From NCBI GenBank assembly GCA_947169975.1, contig CAMVRT010000015.1, positions 1-58,466 on the forward strand: DNA of 58,466 bases. Direction: 5' to 3'. Below the pieces are notes generated by a model. It ran no database searches and was not told the DNA's origin. It was given only the letters and a program-made list of their open reading frames with translations. The stretch is from an uncultured Oscillospiraceae bacterium. Lineage in GTDB: Bacteria; Bacillota; Clostridia; Oscillospirales; Oscillospiraceae. Below, in pieces: positions 3,508 to 51,977 of the stretch. Each line of letters opens with the position of its first letter. Position 1 is the first letter of the stretch. Both the position numbers and the translations under genes were made by a program.

Positions 3508-3655
3508 GACGGCCCCTCATCCGGCGCTTCGCGCCACCTTCCCCCCAGGGGGAAGGCTTGGGGGGATGCGGATTGCCGCGGGCGGCTTGGGCGGGGACGG
3601 ATAAGAGAGTGCCCAAATCTCCGATTTGGCTGCGCGAACTTATGCGTCAGTTGCC
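3508..3655. repeat. Family I short form (minus) and CCAAATC module
   Basis: 3512-3562 is a minus-strand short form: CCTTCCCCC hairpin, then GGCGC, loop GAA, GCGCC, then GGATGAGG. 3603-3652 holds the CCCAAATC-GATTTGG module with the GCGCGAACTTATGCGTCAG border. The gap 3440-3719 has no supported gene. Confidence 0.7.
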
Positions 3656-4192: not shown

Positions 4193-4385
4193 TGACCCCT
4201 CATCCGGCCGCTGGCGCTGACCCCGCATCCGCCTGGCATCCGCTCGGCACCTCTTGCCCACCGTCAGCCCATCCGCTTCTCGCTCCCTATGGTCGCCACA
4301 AGCGGGGGCCTTCCTCGAAATCAGCTCGCTTCATCCGCCGCTGGCGGCGCTTCGCTGATTTCCCCTCAAGGGGAAGGCTTGGGCA
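4193..4385 (-). repeat. Family I long form (modules inserted between hairpin one and the tail)
   Basis: On the minus strand: CCTTCCCCTTGAGGGGAA, module 1 (AAATCAGC pairing with GCTGATTT around CGCCGCC-AGC-GGCGG), the linker CGAGGAAGG, module 2 (GGCCC with GGGCT, inner CCGCTTG with GAAGCGG, loop GACCATAGGGAG), the linker GACGGTGGGCAAGAGG, and the GGCGGATG tail. Related long forms are at 18180-18325, 21222-21382 and 22735-23035. Confidence 0.7.
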
Positions 4386-4387
4386 GC

Positions 4388-4512
4388 AGCAGACCCGGAA
4401 GGCTTCTCCCTGGGGAGAAGGTTAAGTGAGTGCCCAAATCTGTGATTTGGCAGCACGAACTTATGCATGCGAGCGCAGCGAGTCGCAGGCGCGCAGCCGA
4501 CTGATGAGGGGG
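4388..4512 (+). repeat. Composite repeat (hairpin one + CCCAAATC module + tail)
   Basis: GGCTTCTCCCTGGGGAGAAGG, then TTAAGTGAGTG, the CCCAAATC-GATTTGG hairpin, ACGAACTTATGCATGCGAG, and the GCCGACTGATGAGG tail. It is almost base-for-base identical to 8708-8822 over about 90 bases. Confidence 0.8.
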
Positions 4513-8707: not shown

Positions 8708-8822
8708 AAGCCTTCTCCCTGGGGAGAAGGTTAAGTGAGTGCCCAAATCTGTGATTTGGCAGCACGAACTTATGCATGCGAGCGCAGCGAGTCGCAGGCG
8801 CGCAGCGCCGGATGAGGGGAAA
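8708..8822 (+). repeat. Composite repeat (hairpin one + CCCAAATC module + tail)
   Basis: Follows the PBP gene by 20 bases. It is nearly identical to 4388-4512; the tail is GCGCCGGATGAGG instead of GCCGACTGATGAGG. Confidence 0.8.
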
Positions 8823-14304: not shown

Positions 14305-14606
14305 AGGAAAGGAAAAGCCTTCTCCCCGGGGGGAAATCAGCGAAGCGCCGCACCCCAAGCCTTCTCCCCGGGGGGAAATCAGCGAAGCGCCGCACCCCAA
14401 GCCTTCTCCCTGGGGAGAAGGTGCCCCAGTGCGCACACTGGGGCGGATGAGGGGGGCCAAGCCTTCTCCCTGGGGAGAAGGTGGCACGGCGAAGCCGTGA
14501 CGGATGAGGGGTCATTGCGAGCCGCGCAGCGGCGCGGCAATCCGCATTCCGCCGCCCCCGTCCCGTCATTGCGAGCCGCGCAGCGGCGCGGCAATCCGTG
14601 ATCCCG
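14305..14606 (+). repeat. Tandem cluster of six family I and II elements
   Basis: In order: two truncated family I copies (CCTTCTCCCCGGGGGGAAATCAGCG...), at 14313 and 14360; two full short forms, at 14401 (second hairpin GCCCCAGTG, CGCA, CACTGGGGC) and 14460 (CACGGC, GAA, GCCGTG); then two family II copies at 14512 and 14567 (TCATTGCGAG, CCGCGC, AGCG, GCGCGG, CAATCCG). It fills the gap between divergent serC and the CLC gene. Confidence 0.85.
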
Positions 14607-16058: not shown

Positions 16059-16067
16059 CTCTTTTCA

Positions 16068-16277
16068 AGCCTTCCCCTTGAGGGGAAGGTGGCGCGAAGC
16101 GCCGGATGAGGTGTCATTGCGAGCCGCCGCCGGCGGGGCCGCGGCGATACGCCTCCCAAAAGCCTTCCCCCTTGGGGGAAGGTTAAGTGAGTGCCCAAAT
16201 CTGTGATTTGGCTGCACGAACTTATGCATGCGAGCGCAGCGAGTCGCAGGCGCGAAGCCGTGACGGATGAGGGGCCT
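16068..16277 (+). repeat. Three consecutive repeats (family I, family II, composite)
   Basis: 16070-16111 short form (GGCGC, GAA, GCGCC, GGATGAGG). 16112-16152 degenerate family II (TCATTGCGAG ... GCGGCGATACG). 16158-16277 composite with hairpin one, the CCCAAATC module and the GCCGTGACGGATGAGG tail, ending just before the flavoprotein stop. Confidence 0.78.
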
Positions 16278-17929: not shown

Positions 17930-18325
17930 GTGACCCCTCATCAGTCGCTTCGCGCCTGCGACTCGCTGCGCTCGCATGCATAAGTTCGTGCTGCCAAATC
18001 ACAGATTTGGGCACTCACTTAACCTTCCCCCCGGGGGGAAGCCGTTATTAGCCTTCCCCTTGAGGGGAAATCAGCGACACGCCGCCTCGTCGACAGAAAC
18101 TTCACATCCCTCGCCGCGGTGTGCGACACCACGGCTCGTCCGTTTCGTTCTGTCTCCTCTCCCCACCGCAAACACTTCGTTGGTTTGCGGCGGGGACCCC
18201 CATTAGAAAGAAGCGAGATGATTTCGAGGATGGCCCCCGCCTGTCGCGACCGACGGGAGCGAGAGGCGGCTGGGCCGACGGTGGGCAAGAGGTGCCGAGC
18301 GTAAGCGAGGCGGATGAGGTGTCAG
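17930..18325. repeat. Composite (minus) plus long-form family I (plus)
   Basis: 17932-18045 is the minus-strand composite (CTCATCAGTCGC ... CCCAAATC module ... CCTTCCCCCC). 18048-18325 has hairpin one (CCTTCCCCTTGAGGGGAA), a partial module 1, then module 2 (GGCCC with GGGCC; CCGCCTG with GAGGCGG; loop GACCGACGGGAG), GACGGTGGGCAAGAGG, and GGCGGATGAGG. No gene is supported between 17899 and 18616. Confidence 0.72.
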
Positions 18326-21221: not shown

Positions 21222-21425
21222 CCAAGCCTTCCCCTTGAGGGGAAACCGCCGAAGTGCCGCCTGTGGCGGATGCAGCGAGGCGGTTTCGAGGAAGTGTCCC
21301 GGTTTTCACGACCAACGGGAGTGAAAACCGGCTGACACGACGGTGGGCAAGAGGTGGCACGGCGAAGCCGTGACGGATGAGGTGTCATTGCGAGCCGGTG
21401 ACCGACGTCACCGGCGCGGCAATCC
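21222..21425 (+). repeat. Family I long form followed by family II
   Basis: The clearest long form. Hairpin one at 21226-21245; module 1 outer stem AAACCGCC (21243-21250) with GGCGGTTT (21279-21286) around CCGCC-TGT-GGCGG; module 2 outer GTGTC (21294-21298) with GACAC (21334-21338), inner CCGGTTTTCAC (21299-21309) with GTGAAAACCGG (21321-21331); terminal hairpin CACGGC, GAA, GCCGTG; tail GGATGAGG. Family II follows at 21384: TCATTGCGAG, CCGGTGAC with GTCACCGG, GGCAATCCG. Confidence 0.82.
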
Positions 21426-21468: not shown

Positions 21469-21497
21469 TTGACAAACGCCAACGCCTTGCGTATAAT
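21469..21497 (+). promoter_or_regulatory. Promoter of rplJ-rplL
   Basis: Consensus TTGACA (21469-21474), 17-base spacer, consensus TATAAT (21492-21497). One of the two perfect double matches to the sigma-A consensus I saw here, fitting a highly expressed ribosomal operon. Confidence 0.92.
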
Positions 21498-21504
21498 CAC
21501 ATCG

Positions 21505-21622
21505 TTGCGTTCCAAAGACAGCAGGTGGCCCCGAGGCCGTAAGTCCTGCCGAGGATGGCAAATCGTTTTGATTGCTTTTGACCGTCCTCTGTGTCTTTTG
21601 ACCGGAGGACGGTTTCCTTTTT
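21505..21622 (+). promoter_or_regulatory. Ribosomal protein L10 leader with attenuator
   Basis: The conserved L10-leader blocks TTCCAAAGACAGCAGGTG and TAAGTCCTGCCGAGG are present (CAGCAGG pairing with CCTGC), followed by a terminator hairpin ACCGTCCTC (21581-21589) with GAGGACGGT (21605-21613) and TTCCTTTTT. Family knowledge: L10(L12)4 binds this leader when in excess and lowers rplJL expression in Firmicutes; the terminator indicates control by premature termination. Confidence 0.93.
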
Positions 21623-21662
21623 AGAACGCACCGACCAATTCTCATGGAGGTGAAACACAAGA

Positions 21663-22681: not shown

Positions 22682-23045
22682 CTGTCATTGCGAGCCGCGA
22701 AGCGGCGCGGCAATCCGTATGCCCGCGTCTCCTGTCATTGCGGGGAAATCAGCGAAGCGCCGCCAGCGCCAGCGACGCCCCGCGAGGGACGAGCGGATGG
22801 CGGAGCAAGTGCCCTTGGGGTATGGCGGATGAAGCGAGCTGATTTCGAGGAATTCGGCGAAACGCCGCCTGTGGCGGATACAGTGAGCCGAATTCGAGGA
22901 AGGCCCCCGCTTGTCGCGACCGATGGGAGCGAGAAGCGGCTGGGCCGACGGTGAGCAAGAGTGTCCCGGTTTTCACGACCAACGGGAGCGAAAACCGGCT
23001 GACACGACGGTGGGCAAAGCGCAGCCGCCCGCGGCAATCCGCAGC
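22682..23045 (+). repeat. Complex nest of family I and II modules
   Basis: 22684-22716 family II (CCGC, GAA, GCGG inside). 22742-22858 a module 1 (AAATCAGC with GCTGATTT) with other sequence inserted in its loop. 22857-22898 a second module 1 (GAATTCGGC with GCCGAATTC). 22902-22946 module 2 type A (GGCCC with GGGCC; CCGCTTG with GAAGCGG). 22961-23007 module 2 type B (GTGTC with GACAC; CCGGTTTTC with GAAAACCGG). It ends CCGCGGCAATCCG. No gene between 22669 and 23133. Confidence 0.75.
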
Positions 23046-28862: not shown

Positions 28863-31670
28863 ATGAAGAGGATCAAGAGCATGCTGGCGCTGCTGCTGGC
28901 GGCGCTGATGACGCTGACGCTGCTGCCTGTGACGGCGGCGGCGGAGAGCGCGGCACGGACGGAGGAGCAGGCGGGGCATTTCGCCTACGTCAACCCCTTC
29001 TACCGCCGCACCCACACCGACGCGGAGCTGGCGGCGGATCTGGCGGCGCGGCAGGCAGGCGCTCAACCAACCCGCGCCGCCACGCCCCACTATACATCCT
29101 TCGCCTCGGCGGCGGGCTACGTCCGCAGCCAGATGGTGGCCCGGAAGGAGAGCTTTACCCTCTCCGTGCCCGACACCATGCTCTCGCCCACCAATGAGGA
29201 TCTGACGGACGCACTGGTGGAGGAGGCCATGGCCCACGCCGCCGGCGGCGATCCCCGTGCCGGCGACTCTCTGCGCTGGCAGATCGGCTACTGCTACTGT
29301 ACCAAGGTGGATCGGGAGACGGGTAAGAACACCCTGCACTACACGGCCATGTACTACACCACCATCTCCCAGGAGAACGCCCTGACCAGCGAGGTGAACA
29401 GCGCCCTCGCCGCGCTGAAGCTCTCCGGCAAGACGGAGAAGCAGAAGGTCCGGGCCATCTACGACTACATCTGCGACCGGGTCAACTACGACTACGAGCA
29501 CGTGGAGGACAGCAGCTACCTGCTGCAGTACACGGCCTACGCCGCCATGCACAACCGCACCGCCGTGTGCCAGGGCTATGCCGTGCTGTTCTACCGCATG
29601 TGCATGGAGGCGGGCCTTGACGCCCGCGTGGTCACCAGCTATGACCACGCATGGAACATCGTGCGCCTGGGCAGCGTGTACTACAACGTGGACGCCACCT
29701 GGGACGGCCAGGACGACGCCACCACCCACGACTGGTACCTCAAGGGCATGCGTGATTTCCCGGATCACTACCGGGAGCATCCCTATGACCAGGAGCCCTT
29801 TGAGAAGGCCTATCCCATGGTCCGGGACCCCGATCTGAACGTGGCCAACTTCATGACCGCCTTTCCCGGCGTGGACGGCGCCGATGTGTCCGCCAAAGCC
29901 GACGGCAAGGCCAAGCTGCTGATCTTCGGCACCATTGACGACGGCTACAGCATGGAGCTTCTGCGCTATCTGGCCTACTATGACCTGAGCAGGCTGAACG
30001 TGGTATATGCCGACAGCGGAGCCAACAGCCGCGATGAGGTATCGGGCTTTACGGAGGAGGTCTGCTGCGCTCCCGGCGTGAGCGCATGCTGGAATCAGGA
30101 TTCCGTCTGTGCCAATGCCATGTGGCAGGCGCTGGACCAATGCGGCGACCGCAACGAATCCGTCTATGCGCCCGTCATTGTCTACCTGGACGCGGGCAAC
30201 AGGATCCAGCATTATACCGTCGGGCCCATCACCCACTACACGCTGATCAACGGGATCCAGACCTATCTGGGCGTCACCATGAACTCCGGCGCCCCCTACA
30301 TCATCCGGCAGCCCAAGGCCGGCGTCCGCGATGTGGGTGACAGCTTTACGCTGTATGCCGTGGGCCGCGGCGCAGGTGTGATTCATTATCAGTGGTACTC
30401 TCGTCCCTCCGCCTCCGCCCCCTGGCAGGCCTATACCGGCGCCGGCGCCACGGACGGTCATATCAATGTGAAGGTCACCGCTGCGTCCATGGATGGCTGT
30501 CAGTACCGCTGCCGGGTCTACAATGAATACGGCTACACCTACAGCGATGTGGCCACGCTGGAGGTGTACCGTGCCCCGGCCTTCACCACCCAGCCTCACA
30601 ACATCACCGCCCCGGTGGGCGAGACCGCCAAGTTCAAGGTGGAGGCCACCGGCGTGGAGCTGTCCTACCAGTGGCAGTACAAAACCGCCACCGGCACCAA
30701 GTGGAACAACTGCACCATGAAGGGCTTTGACGGTCCGGCTCTGTATGTGCCCGTCACCGCCGCCCGGAACGGCTATCAGTACCGCTGTGTCATCAAGGAC
30801 GTCCGGGGCGTTCAGGCGATCTCCGCCGCCGGCACTCTGAAGGTGAAAACGGTGATCACGTCCCAGCCTGCGGATGTGTATGCCCCGGTGGGCGACACCG
30901 CCAAATTCACTGTCAAGGCCACCGGCGCGGGTCTCACCTACCAGTGGCAGTACATCATGCCCAAGGGCACCACGTGGAATAAGTGCACCACCATGGGCCA
31001 CAATACCCGCACCCTGTCCATCCCCGTGGACACCAACCACAACGGCTACCGCTACCGCTGCAAGATCACCGACGCAAACGGCAAGGTCACCTATACCAAT
31101 GCCGCCACGTTGACGGTGAAGACGGTCATCACGTCCCAGCCCGCGGACTGGACCGCCCCTCTGGGCTGGTCCGCCCGGTTCACCGTCAAGGCCACCGGCT
31201 ATCGTCTCACGTATCAGTGGCAGTACAAGACGGCTGACGGCGCCAACTGGGTGAACTCCACCATGGCCGGCAGCGACACCAACTCCATCGGCGTGATCTC
31301 CACCGCCGCCCGGAACGGCCAGCAGTACCGCTGCGTCATCACCGACGGCAACGGCAACAAGACGTATTCCGCCGCTGCCACGCTGCGTGTGGGCATCCGG
31401 ATCACCGCCCTGCCCAAGGACGTCACCGCCGCGGCAGGGGAGACGGTCACCTTCTCCGTCACCGCCGACGGTCTCGACCTGACCTATCAGTGGCAGTACA
31501 AGGCCGCAGACAGCGACAAGTGGGTCAACTCCGGCATGACCGGCAGCCAGACCGACACCCTGACCGTCAAGGCCACCGCCGCCCGGAACGGCCAGCAGTA
31601 CCGCTGTGTCATCACCGGCGCGGGCGGCGTGGATACCGTCGCCGGTCCCGCCACGCTGACGGTGAAGTAA
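28863..31670 (+). CDS. Secreted transglutaminase-like protease/cross-linker with Ig-like repeats
   Basis: 935 residues. Signal peptide (about 1-27), then a transglutaminase-like core with a full catalytic triad: C236 (AVCQGYA), H262 (YDHAWN) and D277 (YYNVDATWDG). From about residue 478 follow five Ig-like modules of about 90 residues, each with a YQW(Q)Y strand and a YRC strand whose Cys and Trp look like an Ig core. No LPXTG or other anchor is visible at the C-terminus, so it is released or held by the repeats. Family knowledge: TGc domains in bacteria are often peptidases or peptidoglycan/protein-modifying enzymes. ATG 28863 with GAAGGAGTACATC. The modules match those of the downstream gene. 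Confidence 0.88.
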   Translation: MKRIKSMLALLLAALMTLTLLPVTAAAESAARTEEQAGHFAYVNPFYRRTHTDAELAADLAARQAGAQPTRAATPHYTSFASAAGYVRSQMVARKESFTLSVPDTMLSPTNEDLTDALVEEAMAHAAGGDPRAGDSLRWQIGYCYCTKVDRETGKNTLHYTAMYYTTISQENALTSEVNSALAALKLSGKTEKQKVRAIYDYICDRVNYDYEHVEDSSYLLQYTAYAAMHNRTAVCQGYAVLFYRMCMEAGLDARVVTSYDHAWNIVRLGSVYYNVDATWDGQDDATTHDWYLKGMRDFPDHYREHPYDQEPFEKAYPMVRDPDLNVANFMTAFPGVDGADVSAKADGKAKLLIFGTIDDGYSMELLRYLAYYDLSRLNVVYADSGANSRDEVSGFTEEVCCAPGVSACWNQDSVCANAMWQALDQCGDRNESVYAPVIVYLDAGNRIQHYTVGPITHYTLINGIQTYLGVTMNSGAPYIIRQPKAGVRDVGDSFTLYAVGRGAGVIHYQWYSRPSASAPWQAYTGAGATDGHINVKVTAASMDGCQYRCRVYNEYGYTYSDVATLEVYRAPAFTTQPHNITAPVGETAKFKVEATGVELSYQWQYKTATGTKWNNCTMKGFDGPALYVPVTAARNGYQYRCVIKDVRGVQAISAAGTLKVKTVITSQPADVYAPVGDTAKFTVKATGAGLTYQWQYIMPKGTTWNKCTTMGHNTRTLSIPVDTNHNGYRYRCKITDANGKVTYTNAATLTVKTVITSQPADWTAPLGWSARFTVKATGYRLTYQWQYKTADGANWVNSTMAGSDTNSIGVISTAARNGQQYRCVITDGNGNKTYSAAATLRVGIRITALPKDVTAAAGETVTFSVTADGLDLTYQWQYKAADSDKWVNSGMTGSQTDTLTVKATAARNGQQYRCVITGAGGVDTVAGPATLTVK

Positions 31671-31700
31671 GGCGCCGCGATCCGTACCCCGCAACAACCC

Positions 31701-31741
31701 CCAAGCCCCCGGAGTGATTCTCCGGGGGCTTGGTCTGTTTT
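31701..31741 (+). terminator. Intrinsic terminator
   Basis: CCAAGCCCCCGGAG, loop TGATT, CTCCGGGGGCTTGG, then TCTGTTTT. Confidence 0.9.
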
Positions 31742-31788
31742 CCGGCGATGGACAGGGGAGGGGAGTTGACGAAATCCCCGCCATTGCC

Positions 31789-31817
31789 TTGACAGATTTG
31801 CCAAACTGTAGTAAATT
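31789..31817 (+). promoter_or_regulatory. Promoter of the LRR/Ig-like surface protein gene
   Basis: TTGACA (31789-31794), 17-base spacer, TAAATT (31812-31817). Confidence 0.75.
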
Positions 31818-31884
31818 TATCTTGATAAAGTGTGCGGCGCCGCGGAGAGACGCGGCGGCCGCATGATAAAAAGGAGGGACCCCT

Positions 31885-34800
31885 ATGAAAAAACGTATCC
31901 TGCCCCTGCTTTTGTCCCTGATCCTGTGTCTGTCTTTCCTGCCCGCGGCCTATGCCGCCCCGGCAGCGGAGGATGACCGGACCGCCCGTCCGGAACCCGC
32001 GGCGACGGCGGAGGCACCCGCCCCGGATCAGCCGGAGGCGCTGACTCCCCCGGCCGAGCTGCCCGCCGCCAGCGTCATCGACTCCGGCAGCTGCGGCAGC
32101 AGCGTCGTGTGGAAGCTGTACGACGACGGCAAGCTGCTGATCACCGGCAGCGGCAACATGTCGAACTATGCCGCCGTCGGCGCCCCCTGGTACAGCAGAC
32201 GCGCCTCCATCACCGCGTTGGAGGTGGGCAGCGGCGTCACCGGCATTGGCGACTACGCCTTCAACAATATGACGTCTCTGAAAAAGGTGACGCTGGCTGA
32301 CAGCATCACCAGCATCGGCGCCTACGCCTTCGCCCACTGCAAGGGCGTTACCCATATACCGATGCCCGGGAATCTGACCACCATCGGCGATTCCGCCTTC
32401 TATGACTGCACCTCTCTGGAGAGCATGGTGCTGCCCAAGACCGTGACCGCCGTGGAAAACGACGCCTTCTTCGGCGACAGGGCCCTGACGGACCTGTTCT
32501 TTACCGGCGACGCGCCCACCTTCGGCACCAGGGTCCTCTATAATGACTCCGTCACCGTCTACTATCCCACCGCCAACACCACGTGGACCGCAGCTGTCCG
32601 CGCCGAGACCTACAGCGCCGACAGCATCCAATGGGCTGCCATCAAGACCGGCAGCGTGGGCAGGATCGAGCTTGCCGGCGGCGTCAAGCCCGTCACCGGC
32701 GCCATACCCGACGCCAGCGGTATCTATCTGGCGGACGTCAACTGCGGCGTGGAGCTGGTCAGCGCCGAGTGGCGCAACGGCCGGTCCACCACCGCCGCCC
32801 AGGTCTTCCGGGGCGGCGAGTATCCCTACCTGTTCGTCACCGTCCGCGCCTTTGACGGCTGCACCATCTCCAGCGCCAGCTACGTCGTGCACCCGCAATT
32901 CGGCAGCTACAACAGCGGCTACAGCTCTATCTACTCCGGCAAGACCGGCACCTTCTACTGCAGCCTGAACCGCTTGGACAGCACGCTGGATTATACGGTG
33001 GATCTCAGCGCCAACGGCACCGCCACCGTGACCGACGCCGATCTGGCCAGAGCCATTCTCAACGATCTGGGCAAGTCCGCCTCGTCCGCCCAGACCACCG
33101 GCACCGTTACCGCCTATGACTTCAACGGCGACGGCAACACCGATCTGACCGTGGACAACAAGAGCTCCGGCAGCGCCTACAAGCTGGTGCTCACCCAGCA
33201 GACGGGCCTGCTGATGATGCTGGCCGGCGGCTACAACGAAACGTTGACCATCCAGAACAGCGAGAGCAATCAGCTTGCCGCCATCGGGAACGGCATGCCC
33301 TTCTACCAGAAGCTGATCATCCTGCCCAAGTGCGCCACGCTGACGCTGAAGGGCAACGGCGGCCGCTTCATGGACGGCTCCACCACCCTGAAGATCACCC
33401 TGCGCGCCAACGGCGACATCCCCTCGTGGACCCTCGAAGAGTACGGCCTCACCGATTTTACCTCCGCCGGCTTCCGCAGCGGCTATCTGCCCCTGCGCCT
33501 GGCCGCCACCAGCGGCGGCGCCGACCCCATGGAGCTGACCGAGCTTTACAACGCCACCTTCAACAAGGACACCACCCTCTACATGATGTGGGGCAAGTCC
33601 GTGAAGCTGACCCTCAACGCCAACGGCGGCCAGTTCATCCTGCCGGGCAGCAACGGGGTCATCGAGGCAGGCACGGAGATGTCCGTTCAGGTCCCTGCCG
33701 GATTCAAGCTCATGGCTGGCGGCATAGGCCAGTCCGTCGTCCGCAGCGGCTACACCGTCAAGACCTTGTCCACCGACAAGGCCGGCGCCAAGCCGGCGGC
33801 CATTGATGAAAACGGTTATCTCACCATGCCCGCCGCCGACACCACCTACTACGTGCAGTGGGAGCGGCCCGACGAGCCGGTGATCCTGAAGTCCAGCGGG
33901 AGCTGGTACACCTCCGCCGTCACCGGTGAGAATGAGCTGGCCGTGGGCGAGACGCTGGATCTCTACTGCTTCGCCGCCGGCAAGGGCATCACCTACCAGT
34001 GGCAGTACAACTCCGACGGCAGCGAGAACTGGCACAACAGCACCATGACCGGCGCCAAGACCACCCGGATGAGCGTGCCTGTCACCGCCGCCCGTGACGG
34101 CTATCAGTACCGCTGCAAGGTCACCGACAGCAGCGGAAACACCGTGCTGTCCGACGTGGTGACGCTGCACTGCTGCATCGACTTCTACGGTCCCGTGCCC
34201 GACGTCTACGGCGCCGTGGGCGACACAGCCGTCTTCACCGTCCCCGTCAGCGGCGCTGCCTCCTATCAGTGGCAGTACAGCCCCGACGGCAATAACTGGT
34301 ACGACAGCACCATGACCGGCGCCAAGACGGCCACCCTCAGCGTGCCGGTCACCGCCGCCCGTGATTACTATAAGTACCGCTGCCAGGTCACCTTCGTCGA
34401 CGGCAGCAGCGACGTCTCCTATCCCGGCCGGCTTATCGTCACCGACAAGTTCATCGACAAGGTGGATCTGGACCTGAGCTTCCTCCACGACGGCATCACC
34501 TCGGAGGATGTCTTTTTCCACCTGATGGAGAACTTCGTGGGCAGCTGCTGCATGGCCTCCGGTCCCGAGAGCCTCATCAGGATCCCTGCGGGCATGGAGG
34601 CCTATGTGGATCATATGAGTCCGGAGGAGCTCATCCATGAGATGGGCCGTTCCTTTGGCAGCCTGTGTCTGGTTCCCGGCGAGTATATCATGATCATCGG
34701 TCTGGCAGGCACCGACGAAGAGGTGGAAAACCCCTATGAATTCATGAGCGATCCCGGTCAGGAAACGGCCACCGAGTCCGCCCCCGGTCTGGATGAGCTG

Positions 34801-36372
34801 CTGCGTCAGAGCAGCGAGGCCAGGCGCGGCACAAGGATGGCATACGATCCCCACGACTTCTACCAGTTCCGTTGGGACAAGATGAAAGTCACCGTCAACG
34901 GCAAGGCCATGCAGGAGGGCACCGACTGGATCCGCTACAGCTCTTACGGCGAAGATTATCTGGTGCTGGTCTACCGCTTTACCGTCAAGGATGAGACAGC
35001 CCGTATCGTGGCCGATCCGCAGAATGCGGCCGGCTCCGTGGGCGAGAGCGTCACCTTCGCCGTGGAGGCCGCCGGCACGGCCGTGGCCTATCAGTGGCAG
35101 TACTGCGCCGCCGGCAGCACCACGTGGCACAACTCCTCCGCGGAAGGCGCCAACACGCCCATGCTGAAGGTGGACGTCACCGCCGCCCGCAACGGTCAGC
35201 AGTACCGCTGCGTCATCAGCGACTACAAGGGCAATACGGCCACCTCCAAGGCCGCCGCGCTGACCGTCAGCGACAAGCCGGTGATCCAGACCCAGCCCAA
35301 GAGCGTCACCGCCGGCGTGGGCACCGACGTCACCTTCACCGTGTCCGCCGCGGGCCGCATGCCGTGGGTCCTGAGTTATCAGTGGCAGTACCGCACCTCC
35401 TCCACCGGCACGTGGAAGGATTCCGGCGCCACCGGCTGCCATACCCCCACGCTGCACATCCAGGCCACCGCTGCCCGCAACGGTTACCAGTACCGCTGCA
35501 AGGTCACCGATTTCCAGAAGGAGGTCACCGTCACCTCCTCCGCCGCTACGCTGACGGTCGCCGCCAAGCCCGCCGTCACCACCCAGCCCCATGACATCAG
35601 CGCCCCCATCGGCGACACCGCCGTCTTCAAGGTGGCGGCCTCCGGCACGGGCCTTACCTACCAGTGGCAGTACTATACCGGCAGCAAGTGGATCAACTCC
35701 GGCCTCACCGGCAACAAGACGGCCAGCCTCAGCGTGCCCGTCACCGTTGCCCGCAACGGCCAGAAGTACCGCTGCGTCGTCACCGACAGCAAGGGCGTCT
35801 CGACCACCAGCTCCACCGCCGTGCTGAAGGTGAAGACCAAGATCACCGCCCAGCCCAAGACGGTCACCGCCCCCATCGGCGACACCGCCAAGTTCACCGT
35901 CACCGCCACCGGCGTGGGCCTCACGTATCAGTGGCAGTACTACACCGGCAGCAAGTGGGTGAACTCCGGCCTCACCGGCAATAAGACCGCCAGCTTGAGC
36001 GTGCCCGTCACCGCCGCCCGGAACGGTCAGAAGTACCGCTGCGTCATCACCGACGCCAATGGCGTCACCACCACCAGTTCCTCCGGCGTGCTGAAGGTAA
36101 AGACGGTGATCACCGCCCAGCCCAAGAGCGTCACCGCCACGGCCGGCAGCACCGCCAAGTTCACCGTCACCGCCACCGGCGCGGGGCTCACGTACCAGTG
36201 GCAGTACTACACCGGCAGCAAGTGGGTGGATTCCGGCCTCACCGGCAACAAGACGGCCACGCTGAGCGTGGGCGCCACCACCGCCCGGAACGGCCAGAAG
36301 TACCGCTGCGTCATCACCGACGCCAACGGCGCCATGGTCACCAGCTCCACCGCCACCCTGACGGTGAAGTGA
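31885..36372 (+). CDS. Large secreted BspA-like LRR protein with seven Ig-like repeats
   Basis: 1495 residues. Signal peptide (about 1-25, ending AAYA), acidic/Pro linker, LRR_5/BspA-like repeats at about 90-230 (the SITSIGAYAFAHCKGVTHI frame), a Ca-loop-like DFNGDGNTDLTV, a InlB/Flg_new-like segment (LTLNANGGQF ... YYVQW), then seven Ig-like modules with YQWQY and YRC, two before and five after a unique stretch at about 850-1040. The last modules have an 89-residue (267-base) period and are almost identical in DNA, so they amplified recently. No sorting signal is visible. Likely an adhesin or matrix-binding surface protein; the ligand is unknown. ATG after AAAAAGGAGGGACCCC. Separate promoter and terminator from the upstream gene. 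Confidence 0.88.
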   Translation: MKKRILPLLLSLILCLSFLPAAYAAPAAEDDRTARPEPAATAEAPAPDQPEALTPPAELPAASVIDSGSCGSSVVWKLYDDGKLLITGSGNMSNYAAVGAPWYSRRASITALEVGSGVTGIGDYAFNNMTSLKKVTLADSITSIGAYAFAHCKGVTHIPMPGNLTTIGDSAFYDCTSLESMVLPKTVTAVENDAFFGDRALTDLFFTGDAPTFGTRVLYNDSVTVYYPTANTTWTAAVRAETYSADSIQWAAIKTGSVGRIELAGGVKPVTGAIPDASGIYLADVNCGVELVSAEWRNGRSTTAAQVFRGGEYPYLFVTVRAFDGCTISSASYVVHPQFGSYNSGYSSIYSGKTGTFYCSLNRLDSTLDYTVDLSANGTATVTDADLARAILNDLGKSASSAQTTGTVTAYDFNGDGNTDLTVDNKSSGSAYKLVLTQQTGLLMMLAGGYNETLTIQNSESNQLAAIGNGMPFYQKLIILPKCATLTLKGNGGRFMDGSTTLKITLRANGDIPSWTLEEYGLTDFTSAGFRSGYLPLRLAATSGGADPMELTELYNATFNKDTTLYMMWGKSVKLTLNANGGQFILPGSNGVIEAGTEMSVQVPAGFKLMAGGIGQSVVRSGYTVKTLSTDKAGAKPAAIDENGYLTMPAADTTYYVQWERPDEPVILKSSGSWYTSAVTGENELAVGETLDLYCFAAGKGITYQWQYNSDGSENWHNSTMTGAKTTRMSVPVTAARDGYQYRCKVTDSSGNTVLSDVVTLHCCIDFYGPVPDVYGAVGDTAVFTVPVSGAASYQWQYSPDGNNWYDSTMTGAKTATLSVPVTAARDYYKYRCQVTFVDGSSDVSYPGRLIVTDKFIDKVDLDLSFLHDGITSEDVFFHLMENFVGSCCMASGPESLIRIPAGMEAYVDHMSPEELIHEMGRSFGSLCLVPGEYIMIIGLAGTDEEVENPYEFMSDPGQETATESAPGLDELLRQSSEARRGTRMAYDPHDFYQFRWDKMKVTVNGKAMQEGTDWIRYSSYGEDYLVLVYRFTVKDETARIVADPQNAAGSVGESVTFAVEAAGTAVAYQWQYCAAGSTTWHNSSAEGANTPMLKVDVTAARNGQQYRCVISDYKGNTATSKAAALTVSDKPVIQTQPKSVTAGVGTDVTFTVSAAGRMPWVLSYQWQYRTSSTGTWKDSGATGCHTPTLHIQATAARNGYQYRCKVTDFQKEVTVTSSAATLTVAAKPAVTTQPHDISAPIGDTAVFKVAASGTGLTYQWQYYTGSKWINSGLTGNKTASLSVPVTVARNGQKYRCVVTDSKGVSTTSSTAVLKVKTKITAQPKTVTAPIGDTAKFTVTATGVGLTYQWQYYTGSKWVNSGLTGNKTASLSVPVTAARNGQKYRCVITDANGVTTTSSSGVLKVKTVITAQPKSVTATAGSTAKFTVTATGAGLTYQWQYYTGSKWVDSGLTGNKTATLSVGATTARNGQKYRCVITDANGAMVTSSTATLTVK

Positions 36373-36409
36373 GGCGCCGCTCCGCTCCCATCATCCACAG
36401 GAATCCTTC

Positions 36410-40651: not shown

Positions 40652-40710
40652 TAAAGCCTTCCCCTTGAGGGGAAGGTGTCTGCCCGAAGGGCAGACGGAT
40701 GAGGTGTCAG
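40652..40710 (+). repeat. Family I short form
   Basis: AGCCTTCCCCTTGAGGGGAAGG, GTCTGCCC, loop GAA, GGGCAGAC, GGATGAGG, then TGTCA. Confidence 0.82.
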
Positions 40711-51817: not shown

Positions 51818-51942
51818 TGCCCCCTCATCCGTCACGGCTTCGCCGTGCCACCTTCCCCCAGAGGGGGAAGGCTTAGTGGCGCATCGCAAAAGGCTTCCCC
51901 CTGGGGGGAAGCTGTCGGCGCAGCCGACTGATGAGGGGGAAA
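51818..51942. repeat. Two family I short forms inside the ecfT-truA gap
   Basis: Minus-strand copy 51822-51873 (CACGGC, GAA, GCCGTG; CTCATCC) and plus-strand copy 51892-51938 (GGCTTCCCCCTGGGGGGAAGC; GTCGGC, GCA, GCCGAC; TGATGAGG). They split an otherwise tight operon and may end up in its mRNA. Confidence 0.82.
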
Positions 51943-51977
51943 GCGGATTTTGGACGCAACCGAAGGAGGCGTTGCCC

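Follow-up and report, generated by a model that had tools for sequence, protein, structure and literature searches.

A mobile two-hairpin element with paired stem changes in palindromic repeats and tRNA copies of Clostridia

BOX elements of Streptococcus pneumoniae, in the available part of their description (PMC3049150), are small, non-coding and modular, vary in the number of tandem modules and insert into other repeats, and the element reported here resembles them in all these points. They have also a stable RNA-like fold and were judged parasitic there, a likeness noted for the present element as well. The element differs from BOX, as far as that part of the source goes, in having two modules with rewritten stems, palindrome insertion free of duplication, tRNA copies, and a presence in many families of Clostridia. 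REP/BIME sequences with RAYT (PMC3733652, available portion) are, like the element, palindromes with complementary stem changes, and single-strand recognition is a further, putative likeness; some REPs sit inside small palindromes, according to the same portion. Compared with what is described there, the core of the element is larger, has two hairpins, and is without the GTAG or CGTC tag: the hairpin foot in alignment A3 reads GG-GAAA and GAGGAA. YPAL (RU-2) of Yersinia, in the accessible text of PMC2229807, is non-autonomous as well, and its targets span or adjoin dyad symmetry; it makes target duplications of 3–26 bp, whereas the element makes none at two sites. The element fits best as a parasitic modular hairpin whose behaviour is closest to BOX and REP sequences.

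The window, i.e., the whole stretch of 58,466 nt analysed, is contig C15 of a 2.16-Mb genome from the same genus as Vescimonas fastidiosa; one element copy in genome G300 has identical coordinates in record NZ_AP023416. A preliminary description of the window had reported four long forms of a palindromic element with fixed linkers and differing stems, and all four were found at those coordinates, with linkers and stems reading as described. Each long form consists of a short palindromic repeat that is interrupted by a core with two hairpins (Table 1). Module M1 has a 9-bp stem around the core GAAGCG-CCGCC-nnn-GGCGG-nn-AAGCGA and is followed by GAGGAAG; in 137 unique instances its stem is paired at 85–100% at positions 1–9 and at 24% at position 10. 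Module M2 has a 5-bp outer stem, a bulge of 2–3 nt, an inner stem and an apex, followed by the tail ACGGTG. The distance from the base of stem 1 to ACGGTG is 104–107 nt in 92 of 95 distinct bodies, counted with a search pattern that admitted roughly 88–126 nt. Across copies, the parts that vary least are the core of M1, the linker GAGGAAG and the tail ACGGTG. The 16-nt linker gave eight window matches at up to three mismatches, with 1.1 expected. Model R1 found 17 M2 modules at E ≤ 1 in the window's own genome, which were grouped by the analyst into 14 elements. The tandem order M1-M1-M2-M2 occurs also in loci of genomes G212 and G318.

Table 1. Coordinates of the element, its parts, its copies and neighbouring palindromic repeats in the window
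Feature	Position	Strand	Basis or remark
Left part of host repeat REP1 (CCTTCCCC-TTGA-GGGGA)	21227..21243	+	Continuous with 21352-21382 in G311 empty site (L296)
Inserted element, 108 bp (junction ambiguous by one A)	21244..21351	+	Missing from G311 at rplA-rplJ
Module M1	21242..21287	+	Alignment A3, pair counts, stem length
M1 stem 1; core	21242-21250 with 21279-21287; 21251-21278	+	
Linker GAGGAA	21288..21293	+	Alignment A3
Module M2	21294..21338	+	Alignments A1 and A3
M2 outer stem, inner stem; apex GACCAACGGGA	Outer stem 21294-21298 with 21334-21338; apex 21310-21320	+	
Tail GACGGTGGGCAAG	21339..21351	+	Linker/tail search, G311 empty site, A3
Right part of host repeat REP1	21352..21382	+	G311 empty site
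Second copy in REP1, 221 bp, M1 apical loop longer	18069..18289	+	Empty site in G324 (L379)
Third copy, in REP1	4253..4360	-	
Fourth copy, tandem M1-M1-M2-M2 in REP2 (CATTGCGGGG..GCGGCAATCCG, other palindromic repeat)	22747..23017	+	Ends approximate
Two truncated M1 pieces in tandem behind REP1-like starts	14315..14398	+	Repeat family D17
REP1, uninterrupted	106-160, 14458-14511, 16067-16106, 40653-40706, 51889-51943		
Palindromic family GCATAAGTTCG..CCAAATC..GATTTGGGC..CACTTAACC	224-311, 2384-2472, 3593-3645, 4414-4466, 8723-8775, 16175-16227, 17947-18046		

The main host of the element is REP1, a short double hairpin composed of CCTTCCCC-n-GGGGAAGG, a second hairpin and GGATGAGG. In the rplA-rplJ gap, genome G311 has an intact REP1 where that of the window is split by 108 bp, and G303 lacks the element and carries a REP1-like repeat without interruption; no such repeat was found within the 420 bases read at the other 18 fetched loci. 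The outer pieces previously taken as parts of the element, CCTTCCCC-TTGA-GGGGA and AGGTGGCACGGCGAAGCCGTGACGGATGAGG, are accordingly halves of a separate short repeat, and GGATGAGG, counted before with the element, belongs to the host repeat. At the site of the second copy, REP1 is intact in G324, G311 has other sequence, and G317, G236 and G318 have no repeat. Both empty sites read GAGGGGA^AGGTG, no target duplication beyond one shared A was found at these two empty/filled sites, and the outermost base of M1 stem 1 is common to element and target. The element is thus mobile, with the empty/filled comparison coming from two sites only.

Thirteen of the 14 own-genome elements were inspected, with host palindromes, like the tRNA breakpoints below, judged partly by eye: 12 lie in clear palindromic repeats, and for the remaining one, L005, a weak match of 6 bp was seen by eye. 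Seven hosts are REP1, one is half REP1 and half REP2, two are REP2, and two are other inverted repeats of about 15 bp (L062) and about 8 bp (L132). In 24 of 92 elements, the flanks are complementary over a run of 8 bp or more, where about 7.6 such elements are expected. The second hairpin of REP1 also varies with its pairing kept, as judged by eye, and a further palindromic family (GCATAAGTTCG type, Table 1) is nested with REP1. Another palindrome, the arms of which vary (GTAGGGGCG..CGCCCCTAC types), occurs many times in intergenic DNA at the G036 loci L113–L123. At locus L284, the element and about 40 nt lie between copies of a 24-nt direct repeat (TTAAGCGTTGCGGCCGCAGCAGTG); the window sites have no duplication.

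The claim that the stems change in matched pairs holds above shuffled and slid controls in three alignments, the third of which was fitted to its own model. For M2 in the own genome (15 copies, 12 distinct), the covariation score is 0.355, compared with 0.164 for shuffled and at most 0.104 for slid alignments. Alignment A3 took 62 of 63 non-redundant copies, chosen through the M1 core and tail and not through stem pairing; both sides change in 24 of its 33 pairs, the score of 0.412 compares with 0.126 for shuffled and no more than 0.088 for slid alignments, and 95.3% of cells are paired against 79.6% when shuffled. In A4, with 36 divergent copies and fitted to its own model, both sides change in 30 of 33 pairs and the score is 0.579 against 0.152. 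Among 87 distinct pairs of M1 stem-1 arms, 48 are fully paired, with 42 different 5' arms, and 88.8% of arm cells are paired compared with 61.6% in shuffled arms (maximum of 66.0% over 1000 shuffles). The omitted copy, L009:593-704 on contig C8 of the own genome, has mismatched stem-1 arms and is apparently a chimera. Origin of the differing arms from a few unrelated families is contradicted because near-identical copies differ by paired substitutions, namely GTGTC/GACAC to GTATC/GACAT (L010), TCGC/GCGA to CCGC/GCGG (L009:647) and CCGCTT/AAGCGG to CCGCCT/AGGCGG.

The GACC-nnn-GGGAG loop, described as fixed, is not universal, as relatives have, e.g., GGCCCAACGGGCC at this place, and it is lineage-specific; the GACC/GGGA apex is replaced by Watson-Crick letters in relatives, e.g., GGCCC/GGGCC. 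One letter of the linker goes with one letter of the tail, with 36 A-G, 18 C-A, 6 A-A, 1 C-G and 1 G-G among the 62 copies (p 1.7e-9, with the G-G row left out and relatedness uncorrected).

Many divergent copies in other Clostridia interrupt a second copy of a tRNA. With copy types assigned from a pattern, only 2 of 53 copies of type I, the window's own kind, lie within 400 nt of a tRNA, one of them on the tRNA strand. The same distance holds for 13 of 65 other exact-core copies, 14 of 23 class-wide copies and 20 of 29 copies of one further family, all on the tRNA strand, and for 129 of 5700 (2.3%) random positions in the exact-core loci. Two more copies of the further family are 440–445 nt from a tRNA, again on its strand. 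Five copies being common to the class-wide and further-family sets, the distinct non-type-I copies near tRNAs number 42, and all 42 are on the tRNA strand, although they are not independent because many are related. The adjacent tRNAs include those for Ala, Asn, Leu, Lys, Met, Pro, Ser, Thr, Trp, and Val. Flanks of 29 of the 42 copies, chosen by the analyst, were compared with the nearest tRNA and matched it in sense on the left in 9, in antisense on the left in 16, in sense on the right in 18, and in antisense on the right in 1; about 0.03 or fewer are expected for each class. Breakpoints lie after position 21–23 in tRNA-Leu (five copies), after 37–38 in tRNA-Pro (L365 and L367; the match in L405 stops at 19), near 38–39 in tRNA-Asn (L395) and at 46/49 in tRNA-Val; 3' parts start at 38–39 in tRNA-Met and 54–57 in tRNA-Trp. 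The flanks of L358 and L364 had no clear tRNA sequence at the threshold used. By eye, the interrupted tRNA copies are damaged, partial or partly inverted. Loci L255 and L265 have tandem arrays of the element with the 3' end of tRNA-Ala, and arrays of tRNA-Ser-like copies, all of them interrupted by the element. The integrase-like neighbour of L131 brought tyrosine-recombinase integration at tRNA ends into consideration.

Group I introns in bacterial tRNAs occupy an anticodon-loop position, which matches some of the tRNA-Pro and tRNA-Asn copies. In contrast to these introns, the element is much shorter, occurs also in D-arms and T-arms, and has a damaged host tRNA copy with an intact tRNA adjoining.

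A gene was called within 1.5 kb on both sides of 118 of 172 M1 instances by a crude ORF scorer made for the analysis: 40 instances are co-oriented with both neighbours, 36 are opposed to both, 32 lie between convergent and 10 between divergent genes. In annotated DNA of V. fastidiosa, the corresponding numbers for 13 copies, as read by the analyst, are 4, 4, 3 and 2. A cis-regulatory RNA was dropped as a candidate, since the orientation to genes is random. On V. fastidiosa pMM35_01, 12 of 13 copies are on one strand; a replication-strand rule was also dropped, since, among five copies on contig C1 of that genome, three run against the nearest coding majority and two lie near switch points. The L10 leader (Rfam RF00557, 56.3 bits) lies directly downstream of the element at window positions 21494-21627.

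A linked enzyme was rejected, as no protein family adjoins elements in more than three loci. Y1_Tnp is present in 8 of 20 genomes only and absent from the element-rich G187 (7 copies) and G317 (8 copies), and no M1 match flanking the transposase gene was found at 12 of the 13 Y1 loci (all but L327), which does not agree with a REP/RAYT system. RVT_1 was detected in 5 of 24 genomes only (four over cut-off), and not in G036, G300, G317 or G323. IS110 was detected in 10 of 24 genomes only (five over cut-off), and its recombinase is missing from G000, G036, G187 and G317, so an IS110 bridge-RNA element was rejected. G317 thus has eight element copies and none of the three enzyme families. A MITE of a DDE transposase was rejected as well: the ends are not inverted repeats, and the two empty sites lack a duplication beyond the shared A. 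A Y1/RAYT-like gene of 250 aa at L323:1471-2223 (G000:C6) has REP1 about 190 nt downstream and no M1, and is a candidate mover of REP1.

G-U pairs form 39 of 1946 standard pairs in A3 (2.0%) and 15 of 1001 in A4 (1.5%), compared with 126 of 1861 (6.8%) in ARAGORN drawings of 85 distinct tRNAs from the fetched loci, and such scarcity is unusual for RNA helices. It suggests that the constrained fold may be that of single-stranded DNA, or that the arms are corrected by template switching, rather than that of RNA. G-U outnumbers A-C, with 39 against 19 in A3 (p 0.012, from cells that are not independent) and 15 against 9 in A4; this points to a fold formed by one particular strand, and an RNA reading explains it too. 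The preliminary description had read the paired changes as selection on a folded molecule. The covariation agrees with this, and the mobility, the nesting and the near-random orientation to genes modify the picture.

An RNA-level mobile element, whose folded RNA joins loops of other RNAs (tRNAs, hairpin transcripts) with the chimera copied back to DNA, would account for the strand of the 42 copies, the interrupted loops of tRNA arms, and the conserved fold and unpaired letters; the distribution of RVT_1 and the low G-U content argue against it, and it is rather unlikely. Alternatively, replication-stalling palindromes could be copied and mended through template switching without any recognition, so that the arms stay complementary. 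The almost purely Watson-Crick stems and the absence of a linked enzyme beside the elements are in favour of this, and the sense and antisense tRNA fragments around the element resemble products of template switching. However, across 62 diverse copies the unpaired letters of M1, linker and tail hardly vary or do not vary at all (M1 core and tail being partly fixed by the search patterns), and stem and total lengths are steady, which makes it improbable.

The element more probably is a REP/BOX-like non-autonomous modular element, of which a strand of about 105 nt with two hairpins moves, folded and single-stranded, into other hairpins (probability roughly 0.55). This reading draws on the fold kept by paired changes, the two precise empty sites, the palindromic hosts, the tandem modules and the sense-strand tRNA copies, all of which were observed. 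The steady length, the complementary flanks, the near-random gene orientation with few copies between divergent genes, and the low G-U content also favour it. Against it stand the inconsistent distribution of the three enzyme families, the lack of a consistent replication-strand rule, the small number of empty/filled sites, the mismatched arms of the chimera, the weak host match at L005, the type-I copies, which have no tRNA link, and the excess of G-U over A-C. To our knowledge, no module letters are related to BOX, and the likeness is one of behaviour. The folded single strand, most likely DNA, would be recognized through the unpaired core letters by a putative enzyme acting in trans and would join into other hairpins, at loops or arms that are exposed in single-stranded form, with the stem letters free to change while the arms still pair. 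Insertions into tRNAs could be sense-only because transcription would expose the non-template strand. Only tentatively, and with doubt, can the element be proposed as a separate mobile class, in which a strand of about 105 nt, folded into two hairpins, enters loops and arms of other folded strands, namely tRNA arms, REP hairpins and further palindromes, in several Clostridia families without the three tested enzyme families, and keeps a recognizable fold while its stems are rewritten. The element, with exact empty sites and a single fold that is kept by 42 different stem-1 arms, all fully paired, is an unusually clean natural record of a mobile hairpin, and it links mobile hairpins to tRNA loops. 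If insertion of hairpin into hairpin is true, the spread of small palindromic repeats without an obvious transposase becomes testable, and intergenic DNA of bacteria can show strong covariation without a functional RNA behind it.

The view that no named family is known for the element is supported, as nothing reached an Rfam gathering score at the element copies when the window was searched at gathering and 16 loci at E ≤ 1 or 0.5; near elements, there were only chance-level matches below cut-off, e.g., ncS011 with 22.6 of 48 bits in L113. No description of this element was found in the open PubMed Central literature, the scope of the search, with subscription papers outside it. In the family, 13 of 300 genomes gave a match to model R1, and in the genus 22 of 32 did; model R2 matched 19 of 391 genomes of the class, with 14 genera and 11 families among the matches listed. 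A non-coding RNA with a function alongside tRNA operons, spread through duplication, would explain the strong covariation and the tRNA-strand copies, some of which lie between 5S rRNA or tRNA genes and their terminators. It is quite improbable, as copies in the lineage of the window are randomly oriented to protein genes, presence and absence differ between close species, and 287 family genomes and 372 class genomes have no match. No match was found in E. coli records. The exact M1 core occurs in at least 116 stretches, and its carriers among the matches listed include Oscillibacter, Dysosmobacter, Ruminococcus flavefaciens, Faecalibacterium, and Lachnospiraceae records. Plasmid matches come from one Vescimonas record (13 places), and phage matches from seven unannotated faecal 'Bacteriophage sp.' records. 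Tandem repeats of about 267–273 bp lie inside large reading frames at window positions 30555-36376.
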